This document shows, piece after piece, positions 9,623 to 24,567 of a DNA stretch of 37,958 nucleotides (position 1 is the stretch's first letter; every line of letters begins with the position of its first letter). The position numbers and the translations under genes are program-made. The notes beneath the pieces are model-generated. The model did not search any database, was not told the DNA's origin, and saw only the letters and a program-made list of their open reading frames with translations. The stretch is from Bradyrhizobium sp. LHD-71. Lineage in GTDB: Bacteria; Pseudomonadota; Alphaproteobacteria; Rhizobiales; Xanthobacteraceae. The stretch is taken from contig NZ_JAVIFX010000050.1 of the NCBI RefSeq assembly GCF_031157255.1, positions 1 through 37,958 of the forward strand, in the 5' to 3' direction.

Positions 9623-10495
9623 CTAACTGCGCTCGCCGATTCGCCGCACGATCTCATCGAACTGCTCGAGCGTGCGATAGTGAATTTGAACCGTTCCGCC
9701 GGGCTCCTTGTGATCGACGTTGACGCGCAGACCCATCGCGTCGCTCAGGCGTTTTTCGAGCTCCAGGATGTTGGCGTCCTTGCGCGCCTTCTGCGCGCCG
9801 GTCTTTCGCGACGGTACGCCACCCTCATGGGCAAGCGCCTCGGTCTGCCGAACGCTTAAGCTTTCGTCGATCACGCGAGCCGCCGCCTGCGATGGATCGG
9901 CAAGCCCGATCAGCGCGCGCGCGTGACCGGCCGACAGCTTGCCGGATGAAATCATGTCCTGGACGTCCTGCGGCAGCTTTGTCAGCCGCATCATGTTCGC
10001 CACATGACTGCGACTTTTGCCGACGGCCTTCGCAACGTCCTCGGTCGAGTGCTTGAATTCGTCGACCAGCAGGTGATATCCGCGCGCCTCTTCCATGGCG
10101 TTCAGATCTTCGCGCTGCACGTTCTCGACGATCATGATCTGCAGCGCGTCGTTGTCGCTGACCTCGACTGGAACGATCGGCACGTCGTGCAGGCCCGCGC
10201 GCTGCGCCGCGCGCCAGCGCCGCTCGCCGGCGATGATCTCGAACTGGTCTGATGCACCGCGAATTGCGCGGGCGACGATCGGCTGAATCACGCCATGCTG
10301 ACGGATGGACTCCGCAAGCTCGTCGAGCTCGGCATCGACAAACGTCTTGCGAGGGTTGCGCGGATTCGGCTTCAGAAACTCGATCGGCACGCGGCGCTGC
10401 GCGCGCGCACGTTCCGCTTTCGCCTGCTCGCCGCCGACGTCACCGATCAGGCTCGCGAGCCCCCTGCCCAATCGCGATCGCGTTTCCTCCGCCAT
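9623..10495 (-). CDS. parB: Chromosome partitioning protein ParB
   Basis: A 290-residue ParB/Spo0J CTPase that loads at parS sites and spreads along DNA to form the segregation complex. The N-terminal MAEETRSRLGRGLASLIGD is the ParA-interacting segment. The CTP-binding domain has GERRWRA (90-96) and the ENVQRE block (124-129). The helix-turn-helix for parS lies at about 152-172 (DVAKAVGKSRSHVANMMRL), and the C-terminus is a dimerisation domain. ATG 10495 is chosen because AAGGAG lies six bases before it; an in-frame GTG at 10525 is worse. It follows parA with a 33-bp gap. Two matching parS sites lie upstream in the same cluster. Confidence 0.97.
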   Translation of the reverse strand: MAEETRSRLGRGLASLIGDVGGEQAKAERARAQRRVPIEFLKPNPRNPRKTFVDAELDELAESIRQHGVIQPIVARAIRGASDQFEIIAGERRWRAAQRAGLHDVPIVPVEVSDNDALQIMIVENVQREDLNAMEEARGYHLLVDEFKHSTEDVAKAVGKSRSHVANMMRLTKLPQDVQDMISSGKLSAGHARALIGLADPSQAAARVIDESLSVRQTEALAHEGGVPSRKTGAQKARKDANILELEKRLSDAMGLRVNVDHKEPGGTVQIHYRTLEQFDEIVRRIGERS

Positions 10496-10528
10496 CGCTC
10501 GCTCCTTAGGACTCAAAGCATGCACTCC

Positions 10529-11401
10529 TCACGCAAATTCGCTTGCACGCAGCTCGCGCTCACGTTGGATCACTTCGGTCGCAAGCCTGAGATAGGCTTC
10601 GCTGCCAACGCATTTCAGGTCGTAGACCAGCACCGGCTTTCCATGGGACGGCGCTTCGGAAATGCGGACGTTGCGCGGGATCATCGTGTCATAGACCTTC
10701 TTGCCCATGAACTGCCGCACATCGGCGACCACCTGGTTGGAGAGATTGTTGCGTGAGTCGAACATCGTCAGCACAACACCATGGATCGTCAGGTTCGGAT
10801 TAAGTGTCGAGCGTACCTGCTCGACGGTTTGCAGCAGTTGCGACAGACCCTCGAGCGCGAAGAACTCACACTGCAACGGAACGAGGATCGCGTCCGCAGC
10901 GGCCATGGCGTTGACCGTGAGGAGGTTGAGCGACGGCGGACAGTCGATCAGCACATAGGTGTAGGCAGGCTCGGCCGGGTTGGTACCATTCAACACGCCC
11001 AGTGCATTGCGCAGACGAAACGCGCGATCGCGCTCGGTGCCAAGTTGGAGCTCGAGACCGGACAGGTCCATGGTGGAAGCGGCGATATGCAGACGCGGCA
11101 CCGCGGTGGGCAACACCGACTGGCGAAGCCGCGCTTCGCCGATCAACACATCGTAGGTGGAGCATTCGCGCTTGTTGCGATCGATGCCGAGACCGGTCGA
11201 AGCATTGCCTTGCGGATCAAGGTCGATGATCAGCACGTGTTCGCCGGTTGCAGCAAGAGCAGTACCCAGATTGATGGCAGTGGTCGTCTTGCCGACGCCT
11301 CCCTTCTGGTTGGCGAGGGCGATGATCCGCGGCCGGATCGGGCGAGGGTCCGGCTGCGTTTCGTTAAGGATCTGTAAATTGCGGGCGATGTCTTCCGTCA
11401 T
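10529..11401 (-). CDS. parA: Chromosome partitioning ATPase ParA
   Basis: A 290-residue ParA/Soj ATPase that moves ParB-parS complexes by forming a gradient on the nucleoid. The deviant Walker A box KGGVGKTT is at residues 33-40, with LIIDLDPQGNASTGLG and the Walker B region YVLIDCPPSLNLLT after it. The ATG at 11401 overlaps the rsmG stop codon (ATGA), so translation is probably coupled. The frame runs open further upstream into rsmG, but that part is not ParA-like. It is followed by parB in the same direction. Confidence 0.97.
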   Translation of the reverse strand: MTEDIARNLQILNETQPDPRPIRPRIIALANQKGGVGKTTTAINLGTALAATGEHVLIIDLDPQGNASTGLGIDRNKRECSTYDVLIGEARLRQSVLPTAVPRLHIAASTMDLSGLELQLGTERDRAFRLRNALGVLNGTNPAEPAYTYVLIDCPPSLNLLTVNAMAAADAILVPLQCEFFALEGLSQLLQTVEQVRSTLNPNLTIHGVVLTMFDSRNNLSNQVVADVRQFMGKKVYDTMIPRNVRISEAPSHGKPVLVYDLKCVGSEAYLRLATEVIQRERELRASEFA

Positions 11402-12120
11402 GATCGCTTGCCCCCTCGCTCCGCCAGCGATGCTCCCCTTGCGGACACCTGATCGACCTCGACGATCCGGCCACCTGGATTGGTCCGGCTCAAATGCAGC
11501 TTTGAGCTGACAGTCCAATATTTTGTGGCTTCCGTCAATTCAGCCTCAACATCTTGGCCCTTTGGAAACAGAGCCTTGGCGCCCCGCTGGATCAACGGCG
11601 CTGCGAGTCCGAACAGGACATTAAGCGGCGCGAGCGCTCTCGCGGTGACGTAATCCGCCGCCGGTGGATCGCTATCCACGAAATCCTCGATATCCGCGAG
11701 GTGGACGGTGCCGTGTCCACCGCTGATTCGCAACGCCTCGCGAAGAAACGCAGCCTTCTTGGTATTGCGTTCGACCAGATGGACATGACCGCCGCCATCG
11801 GCGAGGGCACAGGCCAGGACAATGCCGGGAAAGCCACCGCCGCTGCCGAGATCGATCCAGGTCTTTCCGGAGGACACCAGGTCAAGGAGTTGGAGGGAGT
11901 CGGCGACGTGCCGCTCCCAGAGCGAACCAAGCGTGGAGGGGGCAACCAAATTCGTTTTCGGCTGCCACGCGCGTAGCAGCGCAATGTAGCGTTCCAGCCG
12001 CTCCTCTGTTTCACGTGAAACAGGACAAAGCTTCAGAGCTGCTCGCTTGTCCGCGGCTTCGTCGATCGAAGACTGACCCGAAGTCCGACCCGCAATCGCC
12101 TTCGCCATGGAGATGGCCAC
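11398..12120 (-). CDS. rsmG: 16S rRNA (guanine527-N7) methyltransferase RsmG (GidB)
   Basis: A 240-residue SAM-dependent methyltransferase that modifies G527 of 16S rRNA; loss of the family gives low-level streptomycin resistance in several bacteria. The SAM motif is DLGSGGGFPG at residues 90-99, followed by the HLVERNTKKAAFL acidic loop and the VTARALAPL segment. The start may be GTG 12120 (used here) or ATG 12108; both have purine-rich sequence nearby. Codons 34-38 (VSRET) are encoded by the parS palindrome at 12007-12022. It lies 15 bp after mnmG and overlaps parA by 4 bp. Confidence 0.95.
   Translation of the reverse strand: MAISMAKAIAGRTSGQSSIDEAADKRAALKLCPVSRETEERLERYIALLRAWQPKTNLVAPSTLGSLWERHVADSLQLLDLVSSGKTWIDLGSGGGFPGIVLACALADGGGHVHLVERNTKKAAFLREALRISGGHGTVHLADIEDFVDSDPPAADYVTARALAPLNVLFGLAAPLIQRGAKALFPKGQDVEAELTEATKYWTVSSKLHLSRTNPGGRIVEVDQVSARGASLAERGGKRS
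12007..12022. promoter_or_regulatory. parS site inside rsmG
   Basis: TGTTTCACGTGAAACA, a perfect 16-bp palindrome that fits the universal chromosomal parS consensus bound by ParB. It lies in the coding sequence of rsmG, near its 5' end, about 1.5 kb from parB and about 11 kb from the predicted origin. Confidence 0.93.
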
Positions 12121-12135: not shown

Positions 12136-14016
12136 TCAGCCCGCGGCTTTTCTCGGCCCGCTGCGCGGCTTTCGGCGAAGGTGCGCGATCAGCAGGGTCA
12201 GCGCCGCCGGCGTGATTCCATCCATGCGGGCAGCCTGGCCGATGGTCGCAGGCCGCGCCGCCTCAAGTCGCTGCCGGGCTTCGTTCGACAGACCTGTCAC
12301 GGCGGCATAGTCGATGCTTTCGCCGAGCTTCAAATTCTCGTCCCGCCGCAACGCTTCGATATCTTCGATCTGGCGGGAGACATAGACATCGTATTTCGCG
12401 TCGATCTCCAGGTGGGTGGCGATGGCCGGATCGAGCGCCGCGAACTCCGGCCAGATCTTGGAGATGCTCGCAAGATTGATGTCCGGGTACGCCAGCAGTT
12501 CAAACGCCGTCCGGCGCTGACCATCCCGGTTGAGGACCAATCCGTGGCGCCCGGCCTCATTCGGTGTCACAGAAAGACTGCGGGCGAGGCTCTTGGCGCC
12601 CTCGAGCGCTGCCATCTTACGGGTGTGAAAGGCGGTCCGACCAGATCCGACGCATCCGAGCGTGACGCCCTGGTTCGTCAGTCGCTGGTCTGCATTGTCG
12701 GCGCGGAGCGACAACCGAAACTCGGCGCGTGACGTGAACATGCGATACGGCTCAGCAACGCCACGGGAAACGAGATCGTCGATCATCACCCCGAGATAGC
12801 CATGGGCGCGGTCGAATACGGTGGTCTCGCCACCCGACGCCCGCAAGGCCGCATTGATGCCCGCGACAACCCCTTGCGCGGCCGCCTCCTCATACCCGGT
12901 CGTGCCGTTGATCTGACCCGCGAGGAAAAGACCCTTGAGCCGTTTCGTCTCCAGCGAAGGCATCAGTTCACGTGGATCGACGTAGTCGTATTCGATGGCA
13001 TAGCCCGGCCGGACCATCCGGGTCTTCTCGAGGCCCGGGATCGTCCTGAGGAGCGCGAGCTGAACCTCCTCCGGCAGCGACGTCGAAATACCATTGGGAT
13101 AGACGGTCGTGTCGTCGAGACCTTCAGGTTCAAGAAAGACCTGGTGGCCGTCGCGCTCGCCGAAACGGACGATCTTGTCCTCGATCGAGGGGCAATAGCG
13201 CGGTCCCCTGCTCTGGATCTGGCCCGAATACATCGGCGACCGATGCACATTAGCGCGGATCACCTCGTGGGTTTCGGCGGTCGTGCGGGTGATGCCGCAC
13301 TGGATCTGCGGGGTCGTAATCTGCCGGGTGAGCACTGAGAACGGCTCAGGCGGATCGTCGCCGGGCTGCATCTCGACAGCACCCCAATCGATCGTCGTGC
13401 CGTCCAACCGTGGTGGCGTGCCGGTCTTCAGGCGTCCGAGTGCAAAACCGAGCCGCTCAAAGGCCCGAGACAGCCCGAGCGCCGGCGCCTCCCCGACCCG
13501 GCCAGCAGGCCAGCTCTTTTCGCCCAGGTGGATCAGGCCTCGAAGAAACGTACCCGTGGTGACAACCACAGCCGCGGCCGTGAGCCTACGACCATCGGCC
13601 AGGACGACACCCCGGGTCCTCCCGTCCGTCATCGTGAGGTCGTCGGCCTCGCCTTCTATCACGGTCAGGTTCGGGGTCTCGGTGAGCGCCGCCTGCATCG
13701 CCGCTGCATAGAGCTTGCGATCAGCCTGCGCGCGCGGCCCACGCACGGCCGGGCCTTTGCGGCGGTTGAGGAGCCGAAATTGGATGCCGGCCTGATCGGC
13801 AACGCGGCCCATGAGCCCGTCCAGGGCGTCGACTTCGCGCACGAGGTGGCCCTTGCCGAGCCCGCCGATGGCCGGGTTGCAGGACATGACGCCAATTGTC
13901 GCGAACTTGTGGGTCAGGAGCGCGGTTCGAGCACCCATGCGCGCGGCCACGGCGGCCGCCTCGCAGCCGGCGTGGCCGCCGCCGATGACAATCACGTCGA
14001 ACGATGTCTGGGTCAT
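12136..14016 (-). CDS. mnmG: tRNA uridine-5-carboxymethylaminomethyl modification enzyme MnmG (GidA)
   Basis: A 626-residue FAD enzyme that works with MnmE to make cmnm5U at the wobble position of certain tRNAs. The FAD-binding Rossmann motif is [11 protein letters not shown] near residues 11-21. Other family signatures are [23 protein letters not shown] (with the catalytic Cys), [25 protein letters not shown] and the second FAD region [21 protein letters not shown]. Length is as expected. The partner mnmE lies upstream in the same direction; rsmG and the par genes follow. A promoter candidate lies 25-53 bp before the start. Confidence 0.98.
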
Positions 14017-14098: not shown

Positions 14099-14114
14099 TG
14101 TTTCACGTGAAACA
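14099..14114. promoter_or_regulatory. parS site between mnmE and mnmG
   Basis: A second perfect copy of the 16-bp palindrome TGTTTCACGTGAAACA, identical to the one in rsmG and 2.1 kb from it. It is intergenic, about 8.6 kb from the predicted origin. Two identical matches beside parA and parB make the assignment very likely. Confidence 0.95.
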
Positions 14115-21682: not shown

Positions 21683-22708
21683 CTATTGTCCCCGCACTCG
21701 GTGGAGCATCCGCTCCACATGCGCGATCGGCGTTGCCGGCAGGATGCCGTGACCCAAATTGAAGATGAAGCGGCCTTTCCCAAAATCGTGCAGGATGACA
21801 TCGACCGCACGATCAAGCGCATCGCCGCCAACCAGCAGTGCAAGAGGATCAAGATTTCCCTGGACTGCAACGCGAGCCTGTACGCGCTCGCGAATGAACG
21901 TCCGGTCGGCCGTCCAGTCGACGCTGACGGCGTTCACCGGCACACCATCCACATATTCTGAAAGCAGGTGCCCCGCGCCGCGCGGAAATCCAATGACCCG
22001 CGCGTTCGGCACCTTCCGCCGAAGCTCGCTGACAATCTCTGCAGCCGGCGCAATGCACCAGCGCCTGAACTCTTCCGGCGGCAGCACACCCGCCCAGGTG
22101 TCGAACAGCTGCACGGCTTCGACGCCTGCTTCGAACTGCTTCTCGAGGTAGACTACTGAGTTCTCGATCAGGCGGTCGATCAGCTTCGCAAACGCTTTCG
22201 GCTGTTCGTAGGCAAATATGCGGGCCGGTGCCTGGTCGCTGGTGCCATGACCGGCAATCATGTAGGTCGCGACCGTCCAGGGAGCGCCGCAAAATCCGAT
22301 GAAGGCCGTCCTCTCATCGAGTTGCGGCTTCACCTGCCGCACCGTCTGATAGATCGGCGAGAGGATCGCTTGATCCACCATGCGCGGCAATCGATCGATC
22401 GCGTGTTCGTTCGTGAGCGGATCCAGGCGAGGGCCTTCGCCCGCCTCGAACCTCACTGTTTGGCCCAGCGCATGCGGGATAACCAGAATGTCGGAAAACA
22501 GGATCGCCCCATCGAATTGAAACCTGCGAATCGGCTGCAGCGTGATCTCGGCGGCAAGTTCCGGCGTAAAGCAGAGTTTCATGAACGAGCCCGCCTGCTC
22601 CCGCAGCGCGCGATACTCCGGCAGATAGCGGCCCGCCTGCCGCATCATCCAGACGGGCGGTGTGGCCGTACGCTGTCCATCCAGCACGTTCAGAAAAGCG
22701 TTGCTCAC
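21683..22708 (-). CDS. hemE: Uroporphyrinogen decarboxylase
   Basis: A 341-residue enzyme that removes four carboxyl groups from uroporphyrinogen III to give coproporphyrinogen III in heme synthesis. The first family signature is [17 protein letters not shown], with the substrate-binding Arg residues; [17 protein letters not shown] is the second. The start is set at GTG 22708 because GAGGA lies 7 bp upstream; an adjoining TTG at 22711 would be too close to it. The gene starts at the edge of the predicted origin and runs away from it, as in Caulobacter and Rickettsia. Confidence 0.97.
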
Positions 22709-22711
22709 CAA

Positions 22712-23116
22712 GGTTTCCTCAAGGGGCTCTTCTCTTAAAACTATCTATTTCAAGATTCTAGTTAGTAGCTGTTAGGCCGTGGATTTGACTCACGACTCGA
22801 AGCCCAGGACTTATCCAGCGATCATCCACACCCTCCCGCGACTGTGCCCATATTCAACAGGGCCGTCATCGAGCCAAATAACATCGGCTTTATCGGCTTC
22901 CTGCTGCATTGCTGGTCCGAATATCAAGAGACAAGTCCACATAACCCCATTATCATCGTTTCCGGAGCCTGAAATTGTCCCCGCGAGGGTGTTTGTGAAC
23001 GACTTTGCCGCTTATCCCGCTCGGGAATACCGACGAATGGATTTGCGTCGATTCCTCAACATCAATTCACAATCCATGCCGATATCCGAGGATGACCGAC
23101 CGGATCGCCTGTTGCC
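22712..23116. other. Predicted chromosomal replication origin (oriC)
   Basis: A 405-bp stretch without a gene between hemE (leftward) and the DUF299/RP001 homologue (rightward). This gene pair flanks the proven origin of Caulobacter crescentus and the proposed one of Rickettsia. It holds DnaA-box-like sites: TCATCCACA at 22822-22830 (8 of 9 to TTATCCACA), TTATCCAGC at 22811-22819 (7 of 9), and weaker ones near 22778-22786 (reverse), 22934-22942 and 23012-23020. There is an AT-rich stretch at 22733-22770, a direct repeat ATCGGCTT at 22883 and 22892, and four GANTC (CcrM) sites at 22754, 22787, 22794 and 23050. No origin activity can be shown from sequence alone. Confidence 0.75.
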
Positions 23117-23962
23117 ATGATTGTCTCGTCTGCCAGCTATTTCCACTTGCATATGGTGTCCGATTCCACCGGCGAAACGCTGATCACTGTCGCGCGTGCC
23201 GTCGCCGCCCAGTACACGAATGTGACGCCGATCGAGCATGTCTATCCGCTGGTGCGAAGTCAGAAGCAGCTCGACCGGGTTCTGAGCGAGATCGAGGAAT
23301 CGCCAGGCATCGTGCTGTTCACCTTGCTGGACGACGAGCTCGTGGACCGGCTGCAGAAGAAATGCACGGAGATCAATATCCCGAGCCTCTCGATCATCGG
23401 GCCGGTGCTGCAATTGTTCCAGGCCTATCTCGGTGCGGAAACCTCCCACCGAGTCGGCGCGCAGCACGTGCTGAACGCGGAGTACTTCAAACGGATTGAT
23501 GCGCTGAACTACACGATGCTGCACGACGATGGTCAGCACACCGAAGGATTGGAAGAAGCGGAGGTCGTGCTCGTTGGCGTGTCGCGAACGTCGAAGACGC
23601 CGACGTCGATCTATCTTGCCAACCGCGGCATTCGCACCGCGAACATTCCGCTTGTTCCAGGCATACCGCTTCCGGCGGAATTGGAGACCCTCACACGGCC
23701 GTTGATCGTCAGCCTGCATGCGACGCCGGAGCGCTTGATCCAGGTCCGGCAAAATCGCCTGCTCGGTCTTGGTGCACAACAGATGGACAGCGACTCTTAT
23801 GTCGACAAGCAGTCGGTCACGGACGAGGTCATGTTTGCCCGCAAGCTCAGCGCAAGGCATGGCTGGGCGCAACTCGACGTTACGCGTCGCTCCATTGAGG
23901 AGACTGCTGCCGCCATCATCAAGCTTCTGTCCGATCGGCAACGCCAGCGGAGTTCGCCATGA
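23117..23962 (+). CDS. ppsR: Pyruvate,phosphate dikinase/PEP synthase regulatory protein (DUF299)
   Basis: A 281-residue bifunctional kinase/phosphorylase of the DUF299 family, which switches pyruvate,phosphate dikinase or PEP synthetase off and on by reversible threonine phosphorylation. The N-terminal [14 protein letters not shown] and the P-loop GVSRTSKT (154-161) followed by [10 protein letters not shown] are the family hallmarks. Which of the two partner enzymes it regulates is not decided by the sequence. This is the homologue of Rickettsia RP001, which marks the right side of the origin. Its stop codon overlaps the maf start (ATGA). Confidence 0.9.
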
Positions 23963-24567
23963 CGCTGTGGTCCGACGACAGACCGCTTGTTCTTGCCTCG
24001 CAAAGCAAGTCCCGACAGGCGTTATTGAAGGGTGCCGGTATCCCATTCGAAGCGATACCTGCAGACATCGATGAGCGCGCAATCCAGCTCGCATCAGAGC
24101 TGAAGGATGCCGCCGCGATTGCGACCCTGCTTGCCAAGTCGAAAGCGCTGTACGTCGCATCGCGCAATGCTGGACGTTTTGTGGTTGGCGCCGACCAGAC
24201 CCTGTCGCTGAAAGACAGGCTCTTCAACAAGCCAGCCGACCGCACTCAGGCGGCCGACCAGATTCGATCGCTGGCCGGCAAAACGCACGAATTGCATTCT
24301 GCAATTGCATTGGCAAAAGATGAGCGAATTCTGTTTGCGCATGTTGCAGTGGCGCGAATGACCATGCGCAGCTTCAGCGAAGCGATGATCGACAATTATC
24401 TTGATGCGGCTGGCGATGCGGTGACGACCAGTGTCGGGGCCTATCAACTTGAGGGTCTCGGGGTGCACCTGTTCGAACGCATCGAGGGCGATCATTTTAC
24501 GATCCTCGGATTGCCATTATTGCCGCTGCTCGCGTCCTTGCGCGACATGGGCCTCGTTGCCGAATAA
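23959..24567 (+). CDS. Maf-family nucleotide pyrophosphatase
   Basis: A 202-residue Maf protein, a family that hydrolyses non-canonical or bulky nucleoside triphosphates (house cleaning) and affects septation in some bacteria. The N-terminal [18 protein letters not shown] is the nucleotide-binding start, although it has Lys where most members have Pro or Arg. VGADQTLS replaces the more usual GADT, as in one branch of alphaproteobacterial Maf proteins. [16 protein letters not shown] and [10 protein letters not shown] end it. It lies between ppsR (overlap) and coaE (18-bp gap). The exact nucleotide preference is open. Confidence 0.9.

Follow-up and report, generated by a model that had tools for sequence, protein, structure and literature searches.

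The gap between hemE and ppsR in Bradyrhizobium sp. LHD-71 (22709-23116) is very probably a DnaA-dependent origin of chromosome replication (oriC), a reading to which we assign a probability of about 0.93. A sequence-only reading of this DNA had proposed an origin here, and the proposal is supported by a GC-skew minimum in the same gap of a congener, by a match of the gap to a profile of corresponding loci from outside the genus, and by parS sites beside parAB.

The gap and its setting

The window, by which we mean the whole stretch of 37,958 nucleotides that was analysed, is one contig of a 7.48-Mb draft genome in 82 contigs. Its minus strand carries the order parB-parA-rsmG-mnmG-mnmE ... rho-hemJ-hemE, followed by the gap; beyond the gap, ppsR-maf-coaE-dnaQ are on the plus strand, and then secB on the minus strand. 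The flanking genes named in the sequence-only reading are confirmed by profile scores above the cut-offs, hemE (21683-22708, minus strand) scoring 404.6 bits with TIGR01464 (cut-off 302.95) and ppsR (23117-23962, plus strand) 344.2 bits with NF003742 (cut-off 225). The closest named relatives of HemE are from Bradyrhizobium, Nitrobacter and Rhodoplanes (64-66%), which places the genome near these genera in Hyphomicrobiales. We take the PPDK/PEPS regulator PpsR to be the protein known as DUF299. Of the 80 named hemE loci retained, 59 likewise have hemE and the DUF299 gene diverging from a gap, and contig ends truncate some of the remaining 21.

The gap measures 408 bp when counted from the GTG start of hemE, and its GC content is 50%, against 62% for the window. 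An AT-rich stretch had been claimed, and one is present beside hemE (22724-22778); AT reaches 68% in the 40-bp window that begins at 22724 and 65% in the one that begins at 22739. This stretch is the candidate unwinding element. Other gaps likewise have their AT peak at 40-80 bp from the start of hemE. Two other readings of the gap were rejected: as a structured RNA (no Rfam match reached the gathering score within the window), and as coding sequence (a congener's gap is longer by 20 bp, a difference that is not a multiple of three).

Sibley reportedly found in 2006 that the chromosomal origin of Sinorhizobium meliloti has the same gene order. The claim that the origins of Caulobacter and Rickettsia are flanked by the same two genes agrees with passages of PMC1914354, where the name DUF299 also appears; the Caulobacter crescentus origin Cori and the Rickettsia prowazekii origin are further alike in having similar size, an AT-rich block and DnaA boxes. 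For Cori the same passages report five sites for CtrA and one for IHF, whereas neither a CtrA pair nor an IHF consensus is present in the window gap.

GC skew

In the window, which is a single 38-kb contig of a genome split into 82, cumulative GC skew reaches its minimum at 24288, a position 1.2 kb past the gap (p 0.002 by 1000 block shuffles), with the best change point at 24310. The clearest view comes from G001, the sole genome of the same genus among the 60 relatives, which is in seven contigs and was sampled as 38 stretches of 20 kb. On its 2.9-Mb contig the skew is negative in all eight stretches to the left of the hemE-ppsR gap and positive in all ten to the right. Within the 40 kb around that gap, the minimum (1555697) and the best change point (1555565) both fall inside the 428-bp gap itself (1555524-1555951), which is the only clear minus-to-plus switch among the 38 stretches. 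The only clear plus-to-minus switch, a terminus, lies on another contig, C7 (plus in 4/4 stretches, then minus in 6/6); contig C4 is minus in 6/6 stretches, and two contigs of 145-147 kb have a skew near zero (four stretches). This pattern fits one origin and one terminus. Skew had been put forward as a test of the proposed origin, and in the congener the switch is at the hemE-ppsR gap.

Relatives assembled as single contigs are less regular: skew is noisy in G014 (14 stretches), and in G028 it is negative to the left and about zero to the right (20 stretches). G025 has no skew; its 8.0-Mb single contig (L137-L156) is almost skewless, with absolute values of at most 0.022 in 20 of 20 stretches.

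Conservation of the element and departure of hemE

Of 61 genomes, 57 yielded ppsR, and the loci of 30 of these, one being the window's own, were analysed. Among the 29 relatives, 19 have hemE divergent from ppsR, and 10 have no hemE within about 1.5 kb. An nhmmer profile built from 21 other loci, none of them from the window's genus, matches the window gap at 22724-23023 (E 2.3e-19); a reversed-sequence control of this search gave no match at E up to 10. The profile also matches DNA upstream of ppsR in the hemE-less loci L005 and L007-L011 (1.4e-6 or better) and, more weakly, in L012 (0.0092) and L006 (0.034), so that the element lies beside ppsR in 8/8 of the hemE-less loci L005-L012. Other hemE-less loci with matches are L017 (2.4e-16) and L031 (2.1e-5, part of the profile). 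By contrast, no match was found in six Bradyrhizobium or Nitrobacter loci of 18.6-21 kb that contain hemE (L033-L035 and L037-L039).

Gene order in the hemE-less regions is constant, being parB-parA-mnmG-mnmE-rho-hemJ-element-ppsR-maf in all ten regions of 35-41 kb (loci L195-L204, L207-L214 and L141-L142). Five of the ten are from named genomes (Bradyrhizobium JYMT SZCCT0428, dw_78, LTSP849 and CSS354, and Nitrobacter Nb-311A) and five from others; in the genome search from the named loci, six of seven loci were taken and L037 was left out. For G025, ppsR falls outside the analysed region and was detected in the genome separately. Judging from these gene orders, hemE has left the origin in the Bradyrhizobium/Nitrobacter branch, and the element has stayed beside ppsR, with hemJ, rho and the par cluster in order.

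These observations bear on whether the gap is merely a conserved divergent promoter region of hemE and ppsR. In favour of this, the gap is where the two genes diverge, and GANTC sites, like AT content, are most frequent at 40-80 bp from the hemE start, a position that would suit a promoter. Because the element stays beside ppsR where hemE is gone, however, it is not a hemE promoter: its neighbour in the ten hemE-less regions is hemJ, and the six Bradyrhizobium and Nitrobacter loci to which hemE belongs have no match to the profile. Promoters alone also leave the skew switch unexplained. We consider a promoter region as the whole explanation to be highly improbable, the least likely of the readings weighed here, although promoter activity may be true in addition, and the element may also serve hemJ or ppsR. 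The preferred reading is that of an origin. Taken by itself, the window has neither a significant GANTC count nor a significant count of close DnaA boxes; it is conservation on which the case rests.

Conservation within the gap was followed in an alignment of 33 rows from the family, of which 10 are the 400 bases upstream of ppsR and not whole gaps. L001, a copy of the window gap (L003), was dropped; L036 and L041-L043, from the named search, are counted within the 33 without a kinship label; and columns filled in fewer than 60% of rows received a conservation of zero. L025 was left out of the alignment and counted among 56 gaps of other families. In that locus (ppsR identity 67%) the hemE-ppsR gap is 116 bp and holds the right half of the element only (profile positions 191-367); its unwinding part may be missing, lie elsewhere or have been lost in assembly.

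DnaA-box-like sites and other short sequences

The pair of DnaA-box-like sites that had been singled out is present, with TTATCCAGC at 22811-22819 (plus strand, two mismatches; TCCA or TCCC in 17/33 rows) and TCATCCACA at 22822-22830 (plus strand, one mismatch; a [CTG]CACA-type core in 19/33 rows) separated by 2 bp. The pair is outside the 25 best conserved 9-bp stretches of the gap. Better conserved sites lie closer to ppsR: TCGTTCACA on the minus strand at 22994-23002 (TGTGAACGA on the plus strand), with TGTG[AG] in 28/33 rows, and CAATTCACA at 23063-23071 (plus strand), with [TC]CACA in 26/33, are both among the best conserved stretches. Two further plus-strand sites are AAGTCCACA at 22933-22941, within AGACAAGTCCACA (core in 20/33 rows), and TTATCCCGC at 23012-23020 (TTATCCCG in 10/33). 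The sequence AGACAA[AG]TCCACA is found in seven of 33 rows, namely the window, its congener and five of the eight hemE-less loci L005-L012.

Chance levels in the window were taken from dinucleotide shuffles of the gap itself. DnaA boxes with at most one mismatch number 1 (shuffle mean 0.10, P 0.10), those with at most two mismatches 2 (1.13 in shuffles, P 0.32, not significant) and those with at most three 17 (8.2 in shuffles, a count that none of 500 shuffles reached). Over the 33 aligned gaps there are 128 boxes with at most two mismatches, against 27.1 +/- 5.1. It is as a set counted over the 33 gaps that several DnaA boxes are attributed to the element; the window alone is not significant at up to two mismatches. 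In its DNA-binding domain the DnaA of this genome is of the E. coli type and carries GGRDHTTVLHA, which is also present in 1J1V. No exact TTATCCACA is present in the gap.

At 22779-22792, beside the AT-rich part, is a GTGGATTTGACTCA box that includes a second conserved GANTC (22787-22791; 23/33 rows). Strict GATTNGACTCA is found at this box in 15/33 rows, whereas other places of the alignment average 0.3 rows. As an order-wide box GATTNGACTCA was rejected, the exact sequence occurring in those 15 rows and in none of the 56 further gaps. Also rejected was a DnaA-trio or BUS reading of the TAGTAG beside this box. The BUS rule of a DnaA box plus a DnaA-trio, as taken from passages of PMC8287927, calls for a run of at least three NAN trios starting within 16 nt of the box; such a run occurs in 2/33 rows, less than in shuffles (0.27 of shuffles), and the window has a run of two. 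The claimed tandem ATCGGCTT pair does exist, at 22883 and 22892, and was discarded as an origin element, being present in one of 33 gaps, that of the window.

The IHF consensus, which we take to be WATCAANNNNTTR, has no exact copy in the gap. No CtrA pair (TTAA-N7-TTAA) is present in the gap or in the whole window, which bears out the earlier statement; its absence is usual here, the pair being present in four of the 33 aligned gaps. The genome does encode CtrA (422.4 bits, over the cut-off) and GcrA (two matches), together with a CcrM-like gene whose 608.6 bits are below that model's cut-off of 830. In Brucella, according to passages of PMC2877005, the origin is not bound by CtrA.

AGANTCT in the likely unwinding region

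GANTC sites lie at 22754, 22787, 22794 and 23050 in the window gap. Four had been claimed, in excess of chance; all four are there, and the excess is not significant (shuffle mean 2.64, P 0.26). Over the 33 aligned gaps the sites number 131, against 59.7 +/- 7.7. GANTC sites are conserved in the AT-rich region, as would be expected of an origin under Dam/SeqA-like methylation control; set against AT-matched windows, plain GANTC stands out weakly (median fraction 0.21).

The longer motif AGANTCT is more distinctive. In the window it is AGATTCT at 22753-22759, where GANTC occurs in 27/33 gaps, and the other six of the window's seven copies are outside the gap. The 33 gaps contain 39 copies, against 2.8 +/- 1.5 in shuffles, and the 56 further gaps 59, against 5.7 +/- 2.7; the motif is present in 27 of the former and 40 of the latter, and missing from six and 16, respectively. 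It is found in 8/8 of the hemE-less loci L005-L012. With 98 copies in the 89 gaps, it is the commonest palindrome of the form 3-N-3, the next being TCTNAGA (50). In 46 loci, each of at least 15 kb, its density is 2.49 per kb in the gaps and 0.068 per kb in the rest (37-fold). Within bases 20-110 of the 56 gaps, a stretch picked after the motif peak had been seen, the density is 10.9 per kb, against 0.111 per kb in AT-rich windows outside, a figure that rests on four sites in 36 kb. Mesorhizobium ciceri (L065) and Rhizobium rhizogenes (L095) have related hemE-ppsR gaps that carry AGANTCT; the gap of R. phaseoli (L106) has none.

In E. coli, AGATCT lies in the 13-mers of oriC. As in the hemE-ppsR gaps, an AGA..TCT motif is thus placed in the AT-rich region, although AGANTCT is one base longer and holds GANTC, not GATC. 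AGATCT is cited in passages of PMC10225481 as the 6-mer of E. coli bound by ATP-DnaA, and from this likeness we infer that AGANTCT may be a site for DnaA-ATP.

Control through methylation would be the weaker proposal. Several GANTC sites are known in Caulobacter-type origins, according to passages of PMC3973325. Caulobacter without CcrM, however, has a DNA content profile like that of the wild type, unlike Dam mutants, and the authors of that paper consider CcrM not to be required for the control of initiation in Caulobacter. In Agrobacterium, CcrM affects ori2 and has no significant effect on ori1, as passages of PMC11514494 report. AGANTCT was not found in the passages searched on GANTC and origin control. 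It is doubtful, in view of the normal DNA content of Caulobacter without CcrM, that AGANTCT acts through methylation, and we regard such action as improbable.

parS and the published gidA origins

The par cluster of the window comprises parB (9623-10525, minus strand; PF17762, PF02195 and PF23552) and parA (10529-11518, minus strand; PF13614). Exact parS sites (TGTTTCACGTGAAACA) are present at 12007-12022 and at 14099-14114; they are the only two exact copies in the draft genome, and they lie 10.7 and 8.6 kb, respectively, from the gap, beside parAB. The palindrome with at most one mismatch occurs in 41 of 41 genomes, the window's own included. G002 (L247-L252) is exceptional in having 59 such palindromes, against 1-5 in each of the other 40; a diverged repeat of about 100-150 bp that carries the palindrome is common to 6/6 flanks examined, and it looks like a dispersed short repeat carrying parS.

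The site at 14099-14114 is in the gap between mnmG (gidA; 12136-14016, minus strand; PF01134) and mnmE, and it is here that a different origin has been proposed. Ori-Finder took TGTTTCACG as the DnaA box of Bradyrhizobiaceae and placed their oriCs beside gidA, in sequences containing TGTTTCACGTGAAACA (passages of PMC2275245); this 2008 proposal was reused for the Oligotropha origin, called by the same motif (PMC3091675, in part), and TGTTTCACG is among the motifs used for Rhodobacteraceae (PMC6699656, in part). That box is half of the parS palindrome, in the window as in the relatives (L195-L214). The full palindrome served as the parS oligonucleotide in a Hyphomonas ParB binding assay (passages of PMC6650430) and fits the Caulobacter parS consensus (passages of PMC7022226); parAB adjoin it, and the E. 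coli-type DNA-binding domain of the genome's DnaA also speaks against TGTTTCACG as its box. The Ori-Finder origins share the neighbourhood of the element and occupy a different gap: a parS-like palindrome (at most two mismatches) is found by mnmG/mnmE in 14/14 regions, 3.6-8.6 kb from the element, with no exact palindrome there in G028 and G064.

Skew favours the ppsR gap, unevenly. The minimum lies away from the gidA site in both the window and G001; in G001 a distance of 7.5-8 kb separates it from the parS-like sites of the mnmG-mnmE gap and of mnmG. By change-point score the ppsR gap is the better place in 10 of 14 regions; the score is nil in two, and it leans to the parS site in G025 (-0.3) and G064 (-7.9). 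The scores exceed 2 for the ppsR gap in five regions only (the window, G001, G063, G062 and G006) and sum to +23.5, of which 18.1 comes from the window and G001; in the ten hemE-less regions the sum is about +12.7. The local cumulative minimum is slightly nearer parS than the element in the hemE-less G026 and G027 and far from both in G028 and G064, and in G064 (Rhodoplanes serenus) a minus-to-plus switch is lacking at both places. Because the change-point scores are mixed, the case in the Bradyrhizobium branch rests on the conserved element and the identity of the palindrome, and less on skew. We judge it very unlikely that the mnmG-mnmE gap is the origin, and the origins published for Bradyrhizobium relatives may be misplaced by a few kilobases. 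No published correction of the gidA/TGTTTCACG origins was found in titles, abstracts and passages, a scope outside which most subscription journals lie.

Implications

If the hemE-ppsR gap is the origin, its operation can be envisaged as follows. DnaA-ATP would bind the degenerate boxes (about 22811-22830, 22933-22941, 22994-23002, 23012-23020 and 23063-23071), the strands would part within the AT-rich block next to hemE (22724-22778), and forks would depart both ways from the opened block. The conserved AGANTCT and GATTNGACTCA boxes would be parts of the opening region, where their role may involve DnaA-ATP, methylation or both. The copied origins would then be separated by ParB bound to the two parS sites, which lie 9-11 kb off.

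A more tentative proposal, which we rate at clearly less than even odds, joins two claims: that AGANTCT is a specific unwinding-region element in the hemE-ppsR origins of Hyphomicrobiales and Sphingomonadales, where it would correspond to the E. coli AGATCT and bind DnaA-ATP, perhaps under tuning by methylation of GANTC; and that the gidA/TGTTTCACG origins published for Bradyrhizobiaceae are parS sites, the true ones lying some 4-6 kb off beside ppsR. The normal DNA content of Caulobacter without CcrM led us to lower our estimate of this joint proposal slightly.

Finally, we note that the location of the origin is the one expected for its group; what is newer is the presence of AGANTCT in the likely melting region and the possible misplacement of Bradyrhizobium origins. 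The role of AGANTCT there, whether as a DnaA-ATP site, through methylation or both, is directly testable. In Bradyrhizobium and Nitrobacter, skew is weak in the sampled regions, and a predictor in wide use has relied on an apparent parS half-site; the element that stays with ppsR offers a way to place the origins of these genera.
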